This document shows positions 14,991-19,465 of a stretch of 20,558 nt of DNA, one piece after another. Position numbers and translations under genes: made by a program. The DNA is taken from the IMG/VR virus record IMGVR_UViG_3300044647_002864, positions 1-20,558 of that record; one strand, given 5' to 3'. This DNA comes from a virus. The notes under the pieces are model-generated. The model was given only the letters and a program-made list of their open reading frames with translations, was not told the origin of the DNA and made no database searches. How positions within the stretch are numbered: position 1 is the stretch's first letter; each line of letters begins with the position of its first letter.

Positions 14991-15374
14991 ATGGATCAGT
15001 TCTTAACCGCCCTTGTTTCAGTAGTGGCAACACTAACCAGCGCGAAAGCGTGGGACTACTACACGAAAAAATTGAACACGAAGACCAACACGCTGGATCG
15101 AAAAGATAGCGAGTTGGCCCTATGGCGCGCCGAATTGAAGGAGCGGGTGGGCCACCTGGAAGCGCAGGTGGCGGATCTGCTCGCGGAAAACGCCAAACTG
15201 CTGGCCGAAGTTCACGCCCTCACTAATCTGGTCTCGCAACTGCGGGACGAAAACCGCCGACTCAATGAAGATACCATGGCTGCCCCGGGTAAACCTCAAC
15301 CGCGCGCAAGAGTTCGCCGGGGCGACGCGCCGGTGGAAGTTCGACCGCGAAAACCCCGTAGCGGCAACCGCTAG
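14991..15374 (+). CDS. Membrane-anchored coiled-coil protein
   Basis: A 127-residue protein. Residues 3-20 (QFLTALVSVVATLTSAKA) are moderately hydrophobic and may form a membrane anchor. Residues about 45-95 are a heptad-like coiled coil (LWRAELKERVGHLEAQVADL...). The end is basic and low-complexity (RARVRRGDAPVEVRPRKPRS). Anchor plus coiled coil resembles inner spanin-like (Rz-type) or other phage envelope proteins; no lipoprotein partner was found. Its last 110 bases overlap the next gene in a different frame, an Rz/Rz1-like arrangement, though the second gene encodes no lipobox. Confidence 0.5.
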   Translation: MDQFLTALVSVVATLTSAKAWDYYTKKLNTKTNTLDRKDSELALWRAELKERVGHLEAQVADLLAENAKLLAEVHALTNLVSQLRDENRRLNEDTMAAPGKPQPRARVRRGDAPVEVRPRKPRSGNR

Positions 15375-15543
15375 ACCGCTGGTTTTGCTCACGCTCACGG
15401 CTTTGTTCGTGGTGTTCGTGGTCAAGGAAAGCAGCGACCCGCAATGGCGCACGCCGGACGATTTGCGCGAATTGTTCATGGTGTTGTACCCGGGTGTTGT
15501 GGCGGCCTATTTCGCAATCCGGACCATCGAAAAGCGTCTTTAA
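15265..15543 (+). CDS. Two-pass membrane protein, holin candidate
   Basis: A 92-residue protein with a basic N-terminal part (residues 1-30), a membrane helix at about 36-53 (ARPLVLLTLTALFVVFVV), a polar acidic loop (KESSDPQWRTPDD) and a second helix at about 70-87 (LFMVLYPGVVAAYFAI), ending IEKRL. Two helices, small size and a charged C-terminus fit a class II holin, but no endolysin is next to it, so this is a guess. The ATG at 15265 lies inside the preceding coiled-coil gene. The stop is embedded in the first TTTAACA repeat. Confidence 0.5.
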   Translation: MKIPWLPRVNLNRAQEFAGATRRWKFDRENPVAATARPLVLLTLTALFVVFVVKESSDPQWRTPDDLRELFMVLYPGVVAAYFAIRTIEKRL

Positions 15544-15558
15544 CATACTTTAACACAT
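15537..15558 (+). promoter_or_regulatory. Two TTTAACA repeats, probable promoter/operator
   Basis: TTTAACA occurs at 15539-15545 and 15549-15555, starts exactly 10 bp apart, followed by TATATTGC at 15561-15568. The same pattern (three copies) precedes the gene at 18679. The spacing equals one helical turn. A TATATTG box 5 bp downstream could be a diverged -7 element (Bacteroidetes consensus TAnnTTTG). It probably drives the gene at 15614 and the small-ORF block. Confidence 0.45.
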
Positions 15559-15613
15559 GCTATATTGCAAAGAGGGCCCCGCCGTGGTTTTCTTTACGGC
15601 ATAACACAACACC

Positions 15614-15766
15614 ATGCAGTTACTGTTCGATCATTGGGCCGAGATCCTTCTTGGCGGTTTGGCTTTTGCCAAGGTTGTAGTGCGGCTCACGCCGTCACTC
15701 AAAGACGACGCCGTTTTCGGCTACCTCGACCGGGTTATTGAGGCATTCGTACCGAACAGGAAATGA
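15614..15766 (+). CDS. Small membrane protein with TP(S)LKDD motif
   Basis: A 50-residue protein, too short for many gene finders. Residues 9-24 (AEILLGGLAFAKVVVRL) are hydrophobic and may span or sit on the membrane; then TPSLKDDAVFGYLDRVIEAFVPNRK. From memory this layout (short helix, then TPT/S.KDD...VIPNRK) is frequent in small holin-like phage proteins. The first gene after the TTTAACA promoter-like region, it starts without a Shine-Dalgarno sequence and overlaps the next gene by 4 bases (ATGA). Confidence 0.65.
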   Translation: MQLLFDHWAEILLGGLAFAKVVVRLTPSLKDDAVFGYLDRVIEAFVPNRK

Positions 15767-15996
15767 AAAACGTTTCGGTGGAACTGATGCTCGACGAACG
15801 GCTCGCGCTGGTCGTGGGGGTGTCCGTGGCTGGCTACGACCAGATCACATCGGTGGAAGACATCGAAATCAACACGGTGAAATTATGCAACATCTACACC
15901 AATCACACGGTCGACATCACGCACCTGTCCGAACAGGCGGGGCCGCTCGTGCTCGATTACGATCAGTTGGCGCTATGGGTGCTGGAAAAGATCTAG
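15763..15996 (+). CDS. Small hypothetical protein
   Basis: A 77-residue, slightly acidic protein, MKNVSVELMLDERLALVVGV..., with beta-strand character and no membrane segment or metal motif. It starts on an ATGA overlap with the small membrane protein. The 3' end overlaps the next gene by 22 bases in another frame. I do not recognise it. Confidence 0.55.
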   Translation: MKNVSVELMLDERLALVVGVSVAGYDQITSVEDIEINTVKLCNIYTNHTVDITHLSEQAGPLVLDYDQLALWVLEKI

Positions 15997-16235
15997 ACCC
16001 CACCATGCTGGTAGATGGGTTCGACGACGCCATCGTGGGGATCATGCACAACACGGAACCGCCCCGCGTGGTGTACGACATCGACCGGATGGTAGAGATC
16101 CTCTCCGCCGACATGACAGAGGAAGAAGCGCGGGAGTATCTCGACTACAACGTGCTGAGCACGTGGGTGGGCGAAGGTACGCCGGTATACGTGCACCGTG
16201 CTAACAAAGAAGACATCACATATATTCTGAATTAA
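15975..16235 (+). CDS. Small phage protein, DGFDDAIVGI family
   Basis: An 86-residue acidic protein (ATG at 15975; a later ATG at 16005 would give a 76-residue product). Residues 11-22 read MLVDGFDDAIVG, followed by RVVYDIDRMVEILSADMTEEEAREYLDYN, then TWVGEGTPVYVHR. From memory, GF(D/E)DAI.G...YD...(V)..L..MT.EEA.EY...N...W.G..TP is a widespread small phage family of unknown function. It overlaps the upstream stop by 22 bases and the next ATG by one base (TAATG). The family resemblance supports this frame over a longer in-frame version starting at 15738, whose first half has a poor protein-like sequence. Confidence 0.7.
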   Translation: MGAGKDLDPTMLVDGFDDAIVGIMHNTEPPRVVYDIDRMVEILSADMTEEEAREYLDYNVLSTWVGEGTPVYVHRANKEDITYILN

Positions 16236-16453
16236 TGAAAAACGCAATCGACACATTCCTTGCAGCACAAAACGTGCGCATGGCCAAGTTAGTAGACCCG
16301 GACGCCGTTATGGTCAAAAAAACGATGGCCAAGCTGGACATGACATTAGATTATCTCGAAACGCTCGGCGAAGACCCGAAGGTTTTCCGGAGTCCCAAAG
16401 CGGCTCAAAAGGCCATCCGCGAAATGCGGAATCTAATCCCACTGATCAAATGA
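16235..16453 (+). CDS. Small paralogue-array protein 1 (MKNAIDTF)
   Basis: A 72-residue helical protein beginning MKNAIDTFLAAQ. Its N-terminus resembles those of the proteins starting at 16815, 17207 and 18123 (MKxA(I/L)(D/E)x(Y/F)). The rest (KKTMAKLDMTLDYLETLGEDP... AAQKAIREMRNLIPLIK) is amphipathic, with a basic end. It carries no known motif. Its ATG overlaps the upstream TAA and its TGA overlaps the next ATG, so it is translated as part of one coupled unit. Confidence 0.55.
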   Translation: MKNAIDTFLAAQNVRMAKLVDPDAVMVKKTMAKLDMTLDYLETLGEDPKVFRSPKAAQKAIREMRNLIPLIK

Positions 16454-16812
16454 GCAACACTCGATCACATGAGTTTGCGGCCAACCCGGGTCCCGGCGAG
16501 TGGGGCGGCATTTTGAATAAATTGCTGAAAGCCGTAGACCAAGACGCCGAAATCAAAAACCTGCGTAAACAACTCGATGAGATTATTGGTCTGAAGGACC
16601 AACTCGTCGCGGAGATGAACAAAGCGGGTGAAAAAGATCCCGCGGTTAGACAGGTGGAAACATCGGTCGCGAACACGGACAACCACATGAAGAAACTAGA
16701 AAAAACGTATACGTACGACGTGGGCGCCGTGATCAAGAAAACATTGGCCGAATACAAAAAAGCCGACCCCAAACTGTACGGTCCGGACGACAACAAAGCA
16801 AAACAGAGCTAA
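16450..16812 (+). CDS. Helical coiled-coil hypothetical
   Basis: A 120-residue protein. It begins with a Gly/Pro patch (SHEFAANPGPGEWGGIL), then a helical heptad-like stretch (LNKLLKAVDQDAEIKNLRKQLDEIIGLKDQLVAEMNKAG), and a Lys-rich tail (KTLAEYKKADPKLYG). It has no signal peptide, cysteine or metal motif. It lacks the MKxA N-terminus of its neighbours but shares helix content and size. It overlaps the upstream stop (ATGA). The next gene starts 2 bases after its stop. Confidence 0.55.
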   Translation: MSNTRSHEFAANPGPGEWGGILNKLLKAVDQDAEIKNLRKQLDEIIGLKDQLVAEMNKAGEKDPAVRQVETSVANTDNHMKKLEKTYTYDVGAVIKKTLAEYKKADPKLYGPDDNKAKQS

Positions 16813-16814
16813 GG

Positions 16815-17210
16815 ATGAAAACCGCACTTGACGTCTACCACGCAGAACTTCGCCAGCAGGAGGTAGCGCTTGCTTCGAAAACCGCGGCCGGGTTGGTCAA
16901 AAAACTTCAGGCCAAAACCAAGGAGTTGGACGCCGCCATTGAAGCGTACAGGCAGAACTTCTTCCTAGCAAACAGTTACCACACGAAATTCGGCCATGCT
17001 TTGCTCACGTCGTATTCAGCCATCAAATGGGGGTACGCGCTGACACCTGAAGAGGAAGCCGCCCGCACCAAACTGTGGCAAACGTACGCCACCCCCGAAC
17101 CTTACGACGTGCAATTAAGGGGATACTTCGCGGAGAGGTGGTACGATGTCGCGGCAATTCAAGCGGCCGCCAAAAGAATCAGCAAATTCGCACAAAACCT
17201 ACAACCATGA
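16815..17210 (+). CDS. Small paralogue-array protein 2 (MKTALDVY)
   Basis: A 131-residue helical protein beginning MKTALDVYHAELRQQEVAL. It has a coiled-coil-like first half (VKKLQAKTKELDAAIEAY) and a mixed second half (YSAIKWGYALTPEEEAARTKLWQTY). The last residues (YFAERWYDV...AKRISKFAQNLQP) look like the end of the 18123 protein (ELYDNVDKAKKKIATFVSKLPN). It overlaps the following ATG (ATGA). No function is recognised. Confidence 0.6.
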   Translation: MKTALDVYHAELRQQEVALASKTAAGLVKKLQAKTKELDAAIEAYRQNFFLANSYHTKFGHALLTSYSAIKWGYALTPEEEAARTKLWQTYATPEPYDVQLRGYFAERWYDVAAIQAAAKRISKFAQNLQP

Positions 17211-17515
17211 AACACGCCATTGACCTTTATAACCAGCACGTAGCGCTGGCCGGTGTCGACTTGGAAAAAATCCGGAAAGCCTTGTACGCGGAGGGAAAAC
17301 AACTCCGGGATTTTATTTACCAAGATTGGAAGCTCTCTGAAAAGATGTTCCTCGATCTGCTGGACGCGGGCCGCATCGAAAAAAACGACGCCAAGGCGTT
17401 GATGAAACAATACGTCGAAGCGGTTAACGGTATGGCACAGGCCGCGCACAAATACCAACAAGACATCGACAAATTGGTAGAAACAATCGGCAAGTATAAA
17501 CACACTTACCAATAA
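17207..17515 (+). CDS. Small paralogue-array protein 3 (MKHAIDLY)
   Basis: A 102-residue helical protein. The start at 17207 (ATGA overlap) fits both operon structure and the MKHAIDLYNQHVALAGVDL N-terminus. ALYAEGKQLRDFIYQDWK aligns by eye with ALEAEKKELQDWYKNKWK in the next protein. The C-terminal half contains YVEAVNGMAQAAHKYQQDID, again matching FVNAVADYNAAHGK of the next one. This pair is the clearest evidence of tandem duplication. The next gene starts 2 bases after its stop. Confidence 0.6.
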   Translation: MKHAIDLYNQHVALAGVDLEKIRKALYAEGKQLRDFIYQDWKLSEKMFLDLLDAGRIEKNDAKALMKQYVEAVNGMAQAAHKYQQDIDKLVETIGKYKHTYQ

Positions 17516-17517
17516 CC

Positions 17518-17820
17518 ATGCAAAACGAAATCAAAGAGTTTATGACTCGCGTATCACTCGCGACGGACTACCAAGACGCCGCCCGCCAAGCGCTGGAGGC
17601 AGAAAAGAAAGAACTTCAGGATTGGTACAAAAACAAGTGGAAGACGGCCGAAGATGCCATCGACGACTTGCAGCAGAACAAAGGGTCGTTCGGGCCGTCA
17701 CCGGAAGAGGCAAAAGCGATCCGGGCGGATTACAACCTCATGATCAACAAGTTCGTCAATGCGGTGGCGGATTACAACGCTGCGCACGGCAAACTGATGA
17801 AACGCCTTAACAAGAGTTGA
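17518..17820 (+). CDS. Small paralogue-array protein 4
   Basis: A 100-residue helical protein, MQNEIKEFMTRVSLATDYQDAAR..., aligning by eye with the preceding protein over residues about 24-41 (ALEAEKKELQDWYKNKWK) and again in the C-terminal third. It differs by carrying an N-terminal MQNEIKEF rather than MKHAIDLY and a Pro/Ser insert (FGPSPEEAKAIRADYN). It ends LMKRLNKS. The next gene begins at a TTG overlapping the TGA. Confidence 0.6.
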   Translation: MQNEIKEFMTRVSLATDYQDAARQALEAEKKELQDWYKNKWKTAEDAIDDLQQNKGSFGPSPEEAKAIRADYNLMINKFVNAVADYNAAHGKLMKRLNKS

Positions 17821-18107
17821 CCGTGGAGCGCTTCGAATTCAAAAACACCGAGCGGGTCGAACTTGCTGCTTTCGACGAGAATGTGGTATACGACCAGATC
17901 GCGGACATGTACCGCACATGGACCAACGCGGTACGCAAGCCCGCACAGGAACTGCAGGCCACGTACGGGATCAAACCCGGCGACGCCACCAAACTGAAAA
18001 AAGACGCGGTGGCACTGTCGTTGGAATTGGAAAAGGCCCTCGACAAAGCCGGGGCGGTAATCAAAGCGATCGCCAAACTCGAAGCAGCCGTGGGCAGGAA
18101 TCGATAA
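17817..18107 (+). CDS. Small paralogue-array protein 5 (TTG start)
   Basis: A 96-residue helical protein. No ATG is available near the start; TTG at 17817 overlapping the upstream TGA is favoured because it gives the same coupling as its neighbours, but GTG at 17823 is possible. Residues 1-20 (MTVERFEFKNTERVELAAFD) are mixed; then DENVVYDQIADMYRTWTNAV, and a Lys/Ala coiled-coil-like end (LELEKALDKAGAVIKAIAKLEAAVG). It shows no strong similarity to the others except size and composition. Confidence 0.5.
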   Translation: MTVERFEFKNTERVELAAFDENVVYDQIADMYRTWTNAVRKPAQELQATYGIKPGDATKLKKDAVALSLELEKALDKAGAVIKAIAKLEAAVGRNR

Positions 18108-18122
18108 AAACCCAACTTCGTG

Positions 18123-18533
18123 ATGAAGAAAGCACTGGAAATCTACCAACAGGAAATTGACGCCAAGCGCTACGAATTCGGCGGCGGTTTTGATGAATCG
18201 GCGGCTCTACAAGAACTCACCGTCTACACGCGGGGTTTATTGTCTAGGGTCAATCATAAAGAAAGGGCGCTAAGTCAAGGCATATCCTTTTATCGAACAG
18301 GTGCTTCCGAATTTTCTATTGACATCAACAAAATGGGGAACGGTTATATTCATTTGAATCTGTTTACCAAAGTTGAAGTATCCTCTCGGTCATTGGCAGA
18401 TCCACGGGCAAACTACCAAACCACATCCGCAAGGGTGGTCAAAAACAAAAAAACACAATTCAGAGAACTATATGACAACGTGGACAAAGCCAAAAAGAAA
18501 ATAGCCACGTTCGTATCAAAATTGCCAAACTGA
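18123..18533 (+). CDS. Small paralogue-array protein 6 (MKKALEIY), mosaic
   Basis: A 136-residue protein. The ATG at 18123 is chosen over the GTG three bases upstream. Residues 1-40 (MKKALEIYQQEIDAKRYEFG...) belong to the same N-terminal type as the proteins starting at 16235, 16815 and 17207. From about 18238 the DNA becomes visibly more AT-rich and the protein less Ala/Lys-regular (GISFYRTGASEFSIDINKMGNGYIHLNLFTKVEV). It ends KAKKKIATFVSKLPN, resembling the 16815 protein. It looks like a chimera with a recently replaced middle. It is the last gene before a 145-bp gap. Confidence 0.6.
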   Translation: MKKALEIYQQEIDAKRYEFGGGFDESAALQELTVYTRGLLSRVNHKERALSQGISFYRTGASEFSIDINKMGNGYIHLNLFTKVEVSSRSLADPRANYQTTSARVVKNKKTQFRELYDNVDKAKKKIATFVSKLPN

Positions 18534-18546
18534 ACGCGGGGACGGG

Positions 18547-18564
18547 TGCCCTTTTAAAAGGGCA
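18547..18564. promoter_or_regulatory. Perfect 18-bp palindrome, terminator or operator
   Basis: TGCCCTTTTAAAAGGGCA lies 14 bases after the last small-ORF stop. As RNA it forms a short stem (TGCCCTT/AAGGGCA) around TTAA; no long T-tract follows on either side, so a terminator is only one option. A dimeric repressor site beside the TTTAACA repeats is the other. Confidence 0.5.
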
Positions 18565-18570
18565 GAGTGT

Positions 18571-18635
18571 TCTTTAACATCTTTTAACATCTTTTAACAC
18601 ATCGGGGTATTGTGTAACAACTGTTTCTATTTTTT
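18571..18635 (+). promoter_or_regulatory. Three TTTAACA repeats with downstream promoter-like region
   Basis: TTTAACA occurs at 18573-18579, 18583-18589 and 18593-18599, exactly 10 bp apart. Then TATTGTGT at 18608-18615 and TATTTTTT at 18628-18635; either could serve as a diverged TAnnTTTG -7 box for a Bacteroidetes sigma factor. It precedes the 18679 gene and matches the two-copy array at 15539. Confidence 0.45.
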
Positions 18636-18678
18636 CTTTGTACCACAAATTCGCCGAAAGGCACTAATTTCCTAATTG

Positions 18679-19221
18679 ATGAAACATCAAACCCGCCCCC
18701 TGAACCAAGATGGTTCATTTGTCAACAACTTGATGGGAAACAACACCACCACCCCTGTGGTCGGTGAAATGTGCACTATCTGCGGTTACAGCGACCGCAA
18801 GGTATACGAGGTTATCGCGGTATCGGAAGACGGCGCCGCATGCACGGTCCGCCGCGTAAAGACCAGCCGCACCGGCAACCGCGACATGAGCGAAATGCAA
18901 ACCTACGAGTACACGTCCAACCCGAACGGCCACACGATGGAATTGATGTGGTCACAACGCAAAGGGCAGGACACCGGCAAATGGGTACAAGTGTCGCATA
19001 CCATCGAATTCGCCCCCGCGGTGCGGCGCGCGGCGAAAGAAGCCGGTCACTATTTCATCACCGACGTGCTCACGCCGGAGCAAAACGAGGCGGTGTACGC
19101 CGGATCCCAAAACGGCCAACCCGCTAACGTCGTGCCGGGCATCACCAAGGCAAAAAAGATTTACTACGACGTGTCAGTAGTGTTTGGCGACGCCGACGAA
19201 TACTTCGATTTCTCATTTTAA
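18679..19221 (+). CDS. Phage protein with SDR...SEMQ.YEY...DFSF pattern
   Basis: A 180-residue protein; ATG at 18679 is preferred over TTG three bases earlier. Residues 10-40 read QDGSFVNNLMGNNTTTPVVGEMCTICGYSDR (shown here in parts: NNLMGNN, VVGEM, YSDR). Then KVYEVIAVSEDGAACTVRR, DMSEMQTYEYTSNPNG, TLTPEQ-like VLTPEQNEAVY, and the C-terminal DEYFDFSF. From memory a phage family with NN.M..N....VG.G.T...(Y/W)(S/T)DR..(Y/T)V..V..., SE.Q.YEY, and ...YYDYSF is common but unnamed. The acidic/aromatic C-terminus could act as a peptide docking tail. It has its own promoter-like region and a strong terminator, so it is a single-gene unit. Confidence 0.65.
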   Translation: MKHQTRPLNQDGSFVNNLMGNNTTTPVVGEMCTICGYSDRKVYEVIAVSEDGAACTVRRVKTSRTGNRDMSEMQTYEYTSNPNGHTMELMWSQRKGQDTGKWVQVSHTIEFAPAVRRAAKEAGHYFITDVLTPEQNEAVYAGSQNGQPANVVPGITKAKKIYYDVSVVFGDADEYFDFSF

Positions 19222-19244: not shown

Positions 19245-19255
19245 ACTTTTCTATC

Positions 19256-19465
19256 ATGAAACTTACCAACGAACAAAAGGAAAAACTCATTGGCGCCGTG
19301 GAGGCGCTGGTGGATCTCCGCAACGAGGCCAGCCACGAATTCAGGATGCAATACGAGCAGCCCGACATGGATTTGAGCCGTTATCACCGACTGATCGACG
19401 AGTACTTCGCCAACCGCAACGAATTAAACGGATTTATCGCCACCCTCAATTTTCCCCAATCATGA
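19256..19465 (+). CDS. Small hypothetical protein after terminator
   Basis: A 69-residue helical, charged protein. The ATG at 19256 is favoured over an upstream in-frame ATG at 19184 because the upstream version would run back through the terminator and the preceding gene. Starts MKLTNEQKEKLIGAVEALVDL; EQPDMDLSRYHRLIDEYF is amphipathic. It has no membrane segment and no metal motif. It overlaps the next gene by 4 bases (ATGA). No Shine-Dalgarno sequence is present; the upstream sequence is T-rich. Confidence 0.55.
   Translation: MKLTNEQKEKLIGAVEALVDLRNEASHEFRMQYEQPDMDLSRYHRLIDEYFANRNELNGFIATLNFPQS

Follow-up and report, generated by a model that had tools for sequence, protein, structure and literature searches.

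A putative tandem family of small phage proteins with a conserved N-terminal segment and fast-changing bodies

The array and its genes

The window analysed here is a virus record of 20,558 bases (IMG/VR IMGVR_UViG_3300044647_002864), a fragment of a genome with all of its main genes on the + strand. Positions 16235-18533 hold an array of seven consecutive small open reading frames (ORFs), A to G, encoding proteins of 72-136 amino acids, and neighbouring frames overlap by ATGA or TTGA or sit 2-15 bases apart. The original prediction, made from this sequence, had recognised the run of small, coupled or closely spaced ORFs and had counted six of them; there are seven, with starts at 16235, 16450, 16815, 17207, 17518, 17817 (a TTG) and 18123. 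Codon usage marks each of the seven frames as coding, and every competing frame scores worse. Judged by its sequence, the array is a tandem family of a Bacteroidota-type siphophage whose members keep an N-terminal segment and have fast-changing bodies.

A second, related phage (the sister phage) has a corresponding array of eight small ORFs, a1–a7 and aF, so that the two arrays hold fifteen proteins in total. In the window, all on the + strand, gene A (16235..16453; 72 amino acids) begins with the signature MKNAIDTF and is an edge gene with a1 as its orthologue. Gene B (16450..16812; 120 amino acids), coupled to A via ATGA, does not have the signature, and gene C (16815..17210; 131 amino acids) carries it as MKTALDVYHAE. 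Genes D (17207..17515; 102 amino acids; MKHAIDLY) and E (17518..17820; 100 amino acids; a degenerate MQNEIKEF) are paralogues. Gene F (17817..18107; 96 amino acids), the other edge gene, has a TTG start, no signature and an orthologue in aF (50% identity), and gene G (18123..18533; 136 amino acids) begins MKKALEIYQQE. The GC content of G is 43% and its third-position GC content (GC3) is 46%, against 48-57% and 61-72% in A-F. The array proteins are soluble by composition (negative grand average of hydropathy, GRAVY) and nearly free of cysteine, and many are basic.

A recurring N-terminal signature

The signature MKxA(L/I)(D/E)x(Y/F) recurs at the start of A, C, D and G, and a4–a7 begin alike. 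It was scored with 11-residue profiles from which the member under test and its closest paralogue had been left out, against a background of 2557 ATG ORFs from related phages; with background and arrays drawn from phages of one kind, any general tendency to start proteins with MK is allowed for. In this leave-one-out test each of A, C, D, G, a4, a5, a6 and a7 outscored all 2557 background ORFs, and E and a2 scored in the top 1%; B, F, a1, a3 and aF lack the signature by the same measure. The members of the profile had been picked by eye for the motif, a bias that leaving one out corrects in part; the result is weaker with a background enriched for the motif by a pattern scan, and the figures quoted come from a background that was not chosen by motif. 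The shared start that had been proposed for A, C, D and G is therefore beyond chance. At the level of sequence, eight of the fifteen proteins in the two arrays, and probably ten, share a start of about 11 residues, MKxALDxYxxE; within the window at least four proteins keep it, and a fifth probably does. Because the signature codons differ more often synonymously (a ratio of nonsynonymous to synonymous differences, pN/pS, of ~0.5 over few codons), the signature appears to be kept as protein rather than as DNA. A purely DNA-level cause of the common start was weighed and not adopted.

The members are related beyond the signature to differing degrees. D and E, which the original prediction had aligned by eye in part, show homology over their length (Smith-Waterman z ~10-11, 30% identity), and theirs is the one strong pair in pairwise tests within the window; C–D, C–G and A–C are weaker (z 3–4). 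The C-termini that C and G had been said to share fare less well in pairwise comparison, where z is 3.6 and the top local alignment falls at the N-terminus, and gain some support from a full-length profile made without the tested protein, which ranks C and G each first of ~6230 (E 4e-4 and 0.011). Full-length profiles further support C, G, a4, a6 and a7, and in the sister array a6–a7 and a4–a6 are also homologous. When all 105 pairs of the fifteen proteins were compared, 16 reached p <=0.01, and 9 were below ~0.01 without the first 20 residues, against 0/180 in controls. By hidden Markov model comparison a relation is thus detected for A, C, D, E and G, is absent for B and is weak, if present, for F (rank 2, E 0.29); one tandem paralogous family would take in A, C, D and G by their signature, D and E by full-length homology and F weakly, and would leave out B.

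Structure models cover D and G alone. D is modelled as three helices with a predicted local distance difference test score (pLDDT) of 72, and has a separate N-terminal helix (residues 2–14, pLDDT ~55) before a hairpin. The model of G is an alpha/beta/alpha arrangement of low confidence (pLDDT 52), from which G is probably not all-helical. The description of all the array proteins as helical suits the model of D and probably does not suit G, in which strands are modelled.

Turnover between sister phages

The sister phage was found by a terminase search (contigs L097, L098 and L099); its terminase is 81% identical, and its portal protein 72% (L184 and L261). The first three genes of its operon are shared with the window (64%, 36% and 67% identity); after them come the eight small ORFs a1–a7 and aF (L098 1597–4037) and then the same promoter. 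The edge genes are orthologous (A and a1, 33–43%; F and aF, 50%), whereas no orthologue of B, C, D, E or G was detected in the sister phage by tblastn at E 0.01. Other shared genes are mostly 50–84% identical, the exceptions being the gene at 15763 (36%), a ParB-like ORF (34–38%), the ORF at 19253 (no counterpart) and the gene at 19462 (49%). The array interior is the most altered part of the compared region, since five of its genes have no detectable orthologue while most shared genes are 50–84% identical, yet it is not the sole altered part. The tandem diversification proposed earlier is borne out more strongly than the window alone would allow: in this slot the sister phage has another array, orthologous in part, in which the N-terminal signature recurs.

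We infer from the sequences that D/E and a6/a7 arose by tandem duplication. Gene G is likely to have been gained recently, because its GC and GC3 are low, no gene follows F in the sister phage and its start is closest to that of a7. Two further IMG/VR contigs are the same phage as the window (99.95% identical across the overlap). Within a phage, a single difference lies inside A–G (17655, the third base of a codon of E) and none lies in a1–aF between L098 and L184. Strict diversifying selection, which the original prediction had invoked, is not demonstrated, because array contigs from the same phage are almost unchanged; the interior genes are too divergent between phages for estimates of dN/dS.

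The array is confined to these two phages in the collections searched. IMG/VR scans with C, D, the D/E alignment, the F/aF alignment and the signature as a DNA pattern found arrays on the contigs of the two phages and no third; a portal search of GTDB genomes led to three contigs of metagenome-assembled genomes (MAGs), and the arrays were absent there in local scans. No significant match to C, E, F, G or a4 came from tblastn against 50,697 phage records. Profile searches of Pfam, PHROGs, PADLOC and the PDB with the array proteins gave weak, inconsistent matches and no structural, enzymatic or lysis family and no functional Pfam or PHROGs family. PADLOC, which covers defence and not anti-defence, gave one weak match of B to DndD (16 bits), probably a product of coiled-coil bias. 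Foldseek with the D model reached a best E of 0.17 in the PDB and 0.16 among viral structures, to generic helical bundles. D resembles the WXG100 protein EsxA in its length of about 100 amino acids and its helical hairpin, and Foldseek gave weak matches to EsxA/EsxB that are not significant (best E 0.59); membership of that family was rejected, as none of A-G has a W-x-G motif. Single small phage proteins of the form MKTAVE...AKEMEK (on L222, L236, L246 and L247) are similar to the array proteins over their first 8-11 residues and differ in their C-terminal motif, with array-profile E values of 0.16-5.

Operon, promoters and modified-base genes

The array probably forms the promoter-distal end of an operon that spans 15614–18533 and has a promoter to itself, because a promoter-like gap with repeated boxes precedes 15614; the operon would end at a palindrome at 18547–18564. 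The promoter region (15539..15596, + strand) has TTTAACA at 15539 and 15549, a 10-bp spacing, then TATTGC... and, at 15588-15596, the -7-like element TTTTCTTTA. TTTAACA occurs 8 times in contig L002 of this phage against 1.2 expected, and 7 of the 8 lie inside three intergenic, promoter-like gaps, in which the boxes are spaced at 10 bp: one upstream of 15614, one upstream of 18676 and one that follows the terminase gene (L002 11368). Each set is followed by a Bacteroidetes-like -33/-7 arrangement, the consensus of Bacteroidetes promoters being TTTG/TANNTTTG (PMC6847099). In both phages the boxes mark three operon promoters, those of the sister lying at 912, 4033 and 11163 of L098, and the boxes at 912/922 are arranged in the same way as those of the array operon. 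Early and late expression cannot be separated by this box, since the same box precedes an operon leading into tail and head genes.

Three + strand genes precede the array in its operon: one for a 50-residue hydrophobic protein (15614..15766; 64% identity to the sister phage), one for a 77-residue acidic protein (15763..15996; 36%) and one for a 76-residue conserved phage protein of phrog_13182, function unknown (16005..16235; PHROGs E 1.5e-21; 67%). Relatives of this last protein occur in large Bacillus phages at ~40% identity. The perfect palindrome TGCCCTTTTAAAAGGGCA 3' of the array (18547..18564, + strand) is terminator-like, and such sites are no commoner here than in shuffled sequence. 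The promoter of the next, replication, operon follows (18573..18640, + strand), with three TTTAACA boxes and then TATTGTGTAACAAC and TTTCTTTG. Upstream of the array operon, a holin-like ORF at 15265-15543 (phrog_3427, E 7e-5) overlaps the gene at 14991-15374 in a different frame and is 65% conserved in the sister phage.

The genes of the window run from tail genes and a tape-measure-like gene through an XkdF-type protease with a scaffold-like gene, capsid and portal to the small genes and the start of the replication region. The two further contigs extend the phage to about window coordinate 29,086, and the extension encodes an exonuclease, a single-stranded DNA-binding (SSB)-like protein, a NinG-like nuclease, the terminase and an operon with PurZ, MazZ and DatZ-like genes; the whole genome is roughly 30 kb. 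PurZ (phrog_1211, E 9e-73), MazZ (phrog_801) and DatZ (phrog_7076) are consecutive at L096 10420-12398 (window ~26117-28098). With these three genes in a row, the DNA of the phage is probably 2-aminoadenine-modified. Of the 51 loci of terminase relatives that extend 1.5 kb or more downstream, 3 have PurZ/MazZ/DatZ genes, all from these two phages, and the array is seen only in these two relatives that also carry the pathway. In a motif scan of the relatives' loci, many of which do not cover the slot, the matches outside the arrays were two single unrelated ORFs (on L052 and L097). The co-occurrence of array and modified base comes from one clade and so amounts to one event at most, a lead rather than a correlation.

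Possible functions of the array

We tentatively favour, with a probability of roughly 0.45, the reading that the array encodes accessory arms-race proteins, for anti-defence or host takeover, that share a docking helix; its make-up suggests a set of exchangeable tools directed at the host. During infection the cell would express the proteins from the operon's own promoter. The N-terminal segment, a predicted helix, would be kept as the part by which every member docks at a single shared partner or location, and the variable bodies would act on changing host targets, such as defence systems or host regulators, with new members arising by duplication (D/E; a6/a7) and by cassette gain (G). Consistent with this are a separate operon and promoter that the sister phage has too, the homology of D with E, a6 with a7 and a4 with a6, the synonymous bias of the signature codons, the lack of any structural, enzymatic or lysis family match, the specificity of the signature to the arrays in the leave-one-out test, the interior of genes that lack detectable orthologues between edge and flanking genes that mostly have theirs, and a gene G that is foreign in base composition and still bears the signature, nearest to that of a7. 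The host-takeover cluster of Bacillus phage SPO1 is, like the array, a run of small genes that lie close together, have unknown folds and are served by promoters of their own; those genes are not known to form a single tandem family sharing an N-terminal segment. Several points weigh against the arms-race reading. No member has a known function; the functional part of the reading is our inference; the signature is missing from B and F; an arms race is not proven by hypervariability alone, as relaxed constraint would look similar; the promoter type is common to operons with head, tail and replication genes; and just two array-bearing phages are known, so every comparison rests on one pair.

The main rival, which we consider unlikely, is that these are virion-internal proteins of the T4 kind, in which an N-terminal tag would load the prohead, perhaps to be clipped by the protease, and the diverse bodies would be ejected with the DNA against first-line defences. 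In T4, ten N-terminal residues of the internal proteins are enough to get them packaged, and the bodies are defence proteins of diverse kinds (PMC9026906, PMC3012670). By anatomy these appear to be the closest precedent: in IPI, IPII and IPIII, too, a short conserved N-terminal segment is followed by small, highly diverse proteins, and the phage likewise has genes for modified DNA and for a prohead protease. Here, a protease gene of the S78 type (XkdF; PF14550, 9634-10158, E 1.5e-11) adjoins scaffold-like and capsid genes, PurZ, MazZ and DatZ parallel the modified DNA of T4, many array proteins are basic, and C, G, a5, a6 and a7 have Glu at position 10 or 11. However, that Glu is missing from A, D, E and a4, which leaves no uniform cleavage site, and the signature is absent from the protease, scaffold, capsid, portal and tape measure proteins of the phage. 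The T4 proteins also go unmatched by sequence in PHROGs, Pfam and the PDB, the genome is small and siphophage-like, and the array has its own promoter in an operon separate from the head genes. Membership of the T4 internal proteins was not adopted, as no homology was found, no cleavage residue is uniform and packaging is putative; the likeness of the 11-residue signature is one of form. We think it improbable that a small 2-aminoadenine siphophage independently reached a T4-like scheme, with one short address tag loading a swappable anti-defence set into the virion and new bodies becoming joined to the tag.

Clearly less probable again is that the array encodes fast-evolving accessory proteins of lysis or of head or tail assembly, in the slot where relatives keep lysis genes. 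In relatives with 45-49% portal identity the slot holds, as read from their sequences, M15-like peptidase, metallophosphatase-like and holin-like proteins; the holin-like overlapping gene lies just upstream of the array operon, and no endolysin was recognised among the genes searched with Pfam. The soluble, nearly cysteine-free composition and the lack of any hydrolase match argue the other way, and so many paralogues with near-complete replacement of the set would be unusual for one such function. We give nearly the same low probability to the view that duplicated small genes of little function arise and disappear here in a mostly neutral way. It would fit the absence of any function found and the edge genes A and F, which diverge faster than most core genes, but the frames are all intact, coding and tightly packed in a genome of about 30 kb, the signature is conserved at the protein level and both phages have kept an array.

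If the arms-race reading is right, the signature would be a sequence handle for fast-changing phage proteins that no database links together, and the two arrays would supply a panel of fifteen small genes for anti-defence screening. The limitation of the array to two relatives with the 2-aminoadenine pathway makes a link to modified DNA testable.

Other features of the phages

The relatives found are phages of Bacteroidota, namely Nonlabens phage P12024S and contigs of Bacteroidia and Flavobacteriaceae MAGs. L002 and L090, two contigs of one phage, are strongly different in the stretch from a promoter to PurZ (about window 25755-26117), where L090 has an extra small ORF. Gene H (window 18679-19221; L098 11279-11809) heads the replication operon in one phage and follows the terminase gene in the other; it is a promoter-proximal gene that has moved.
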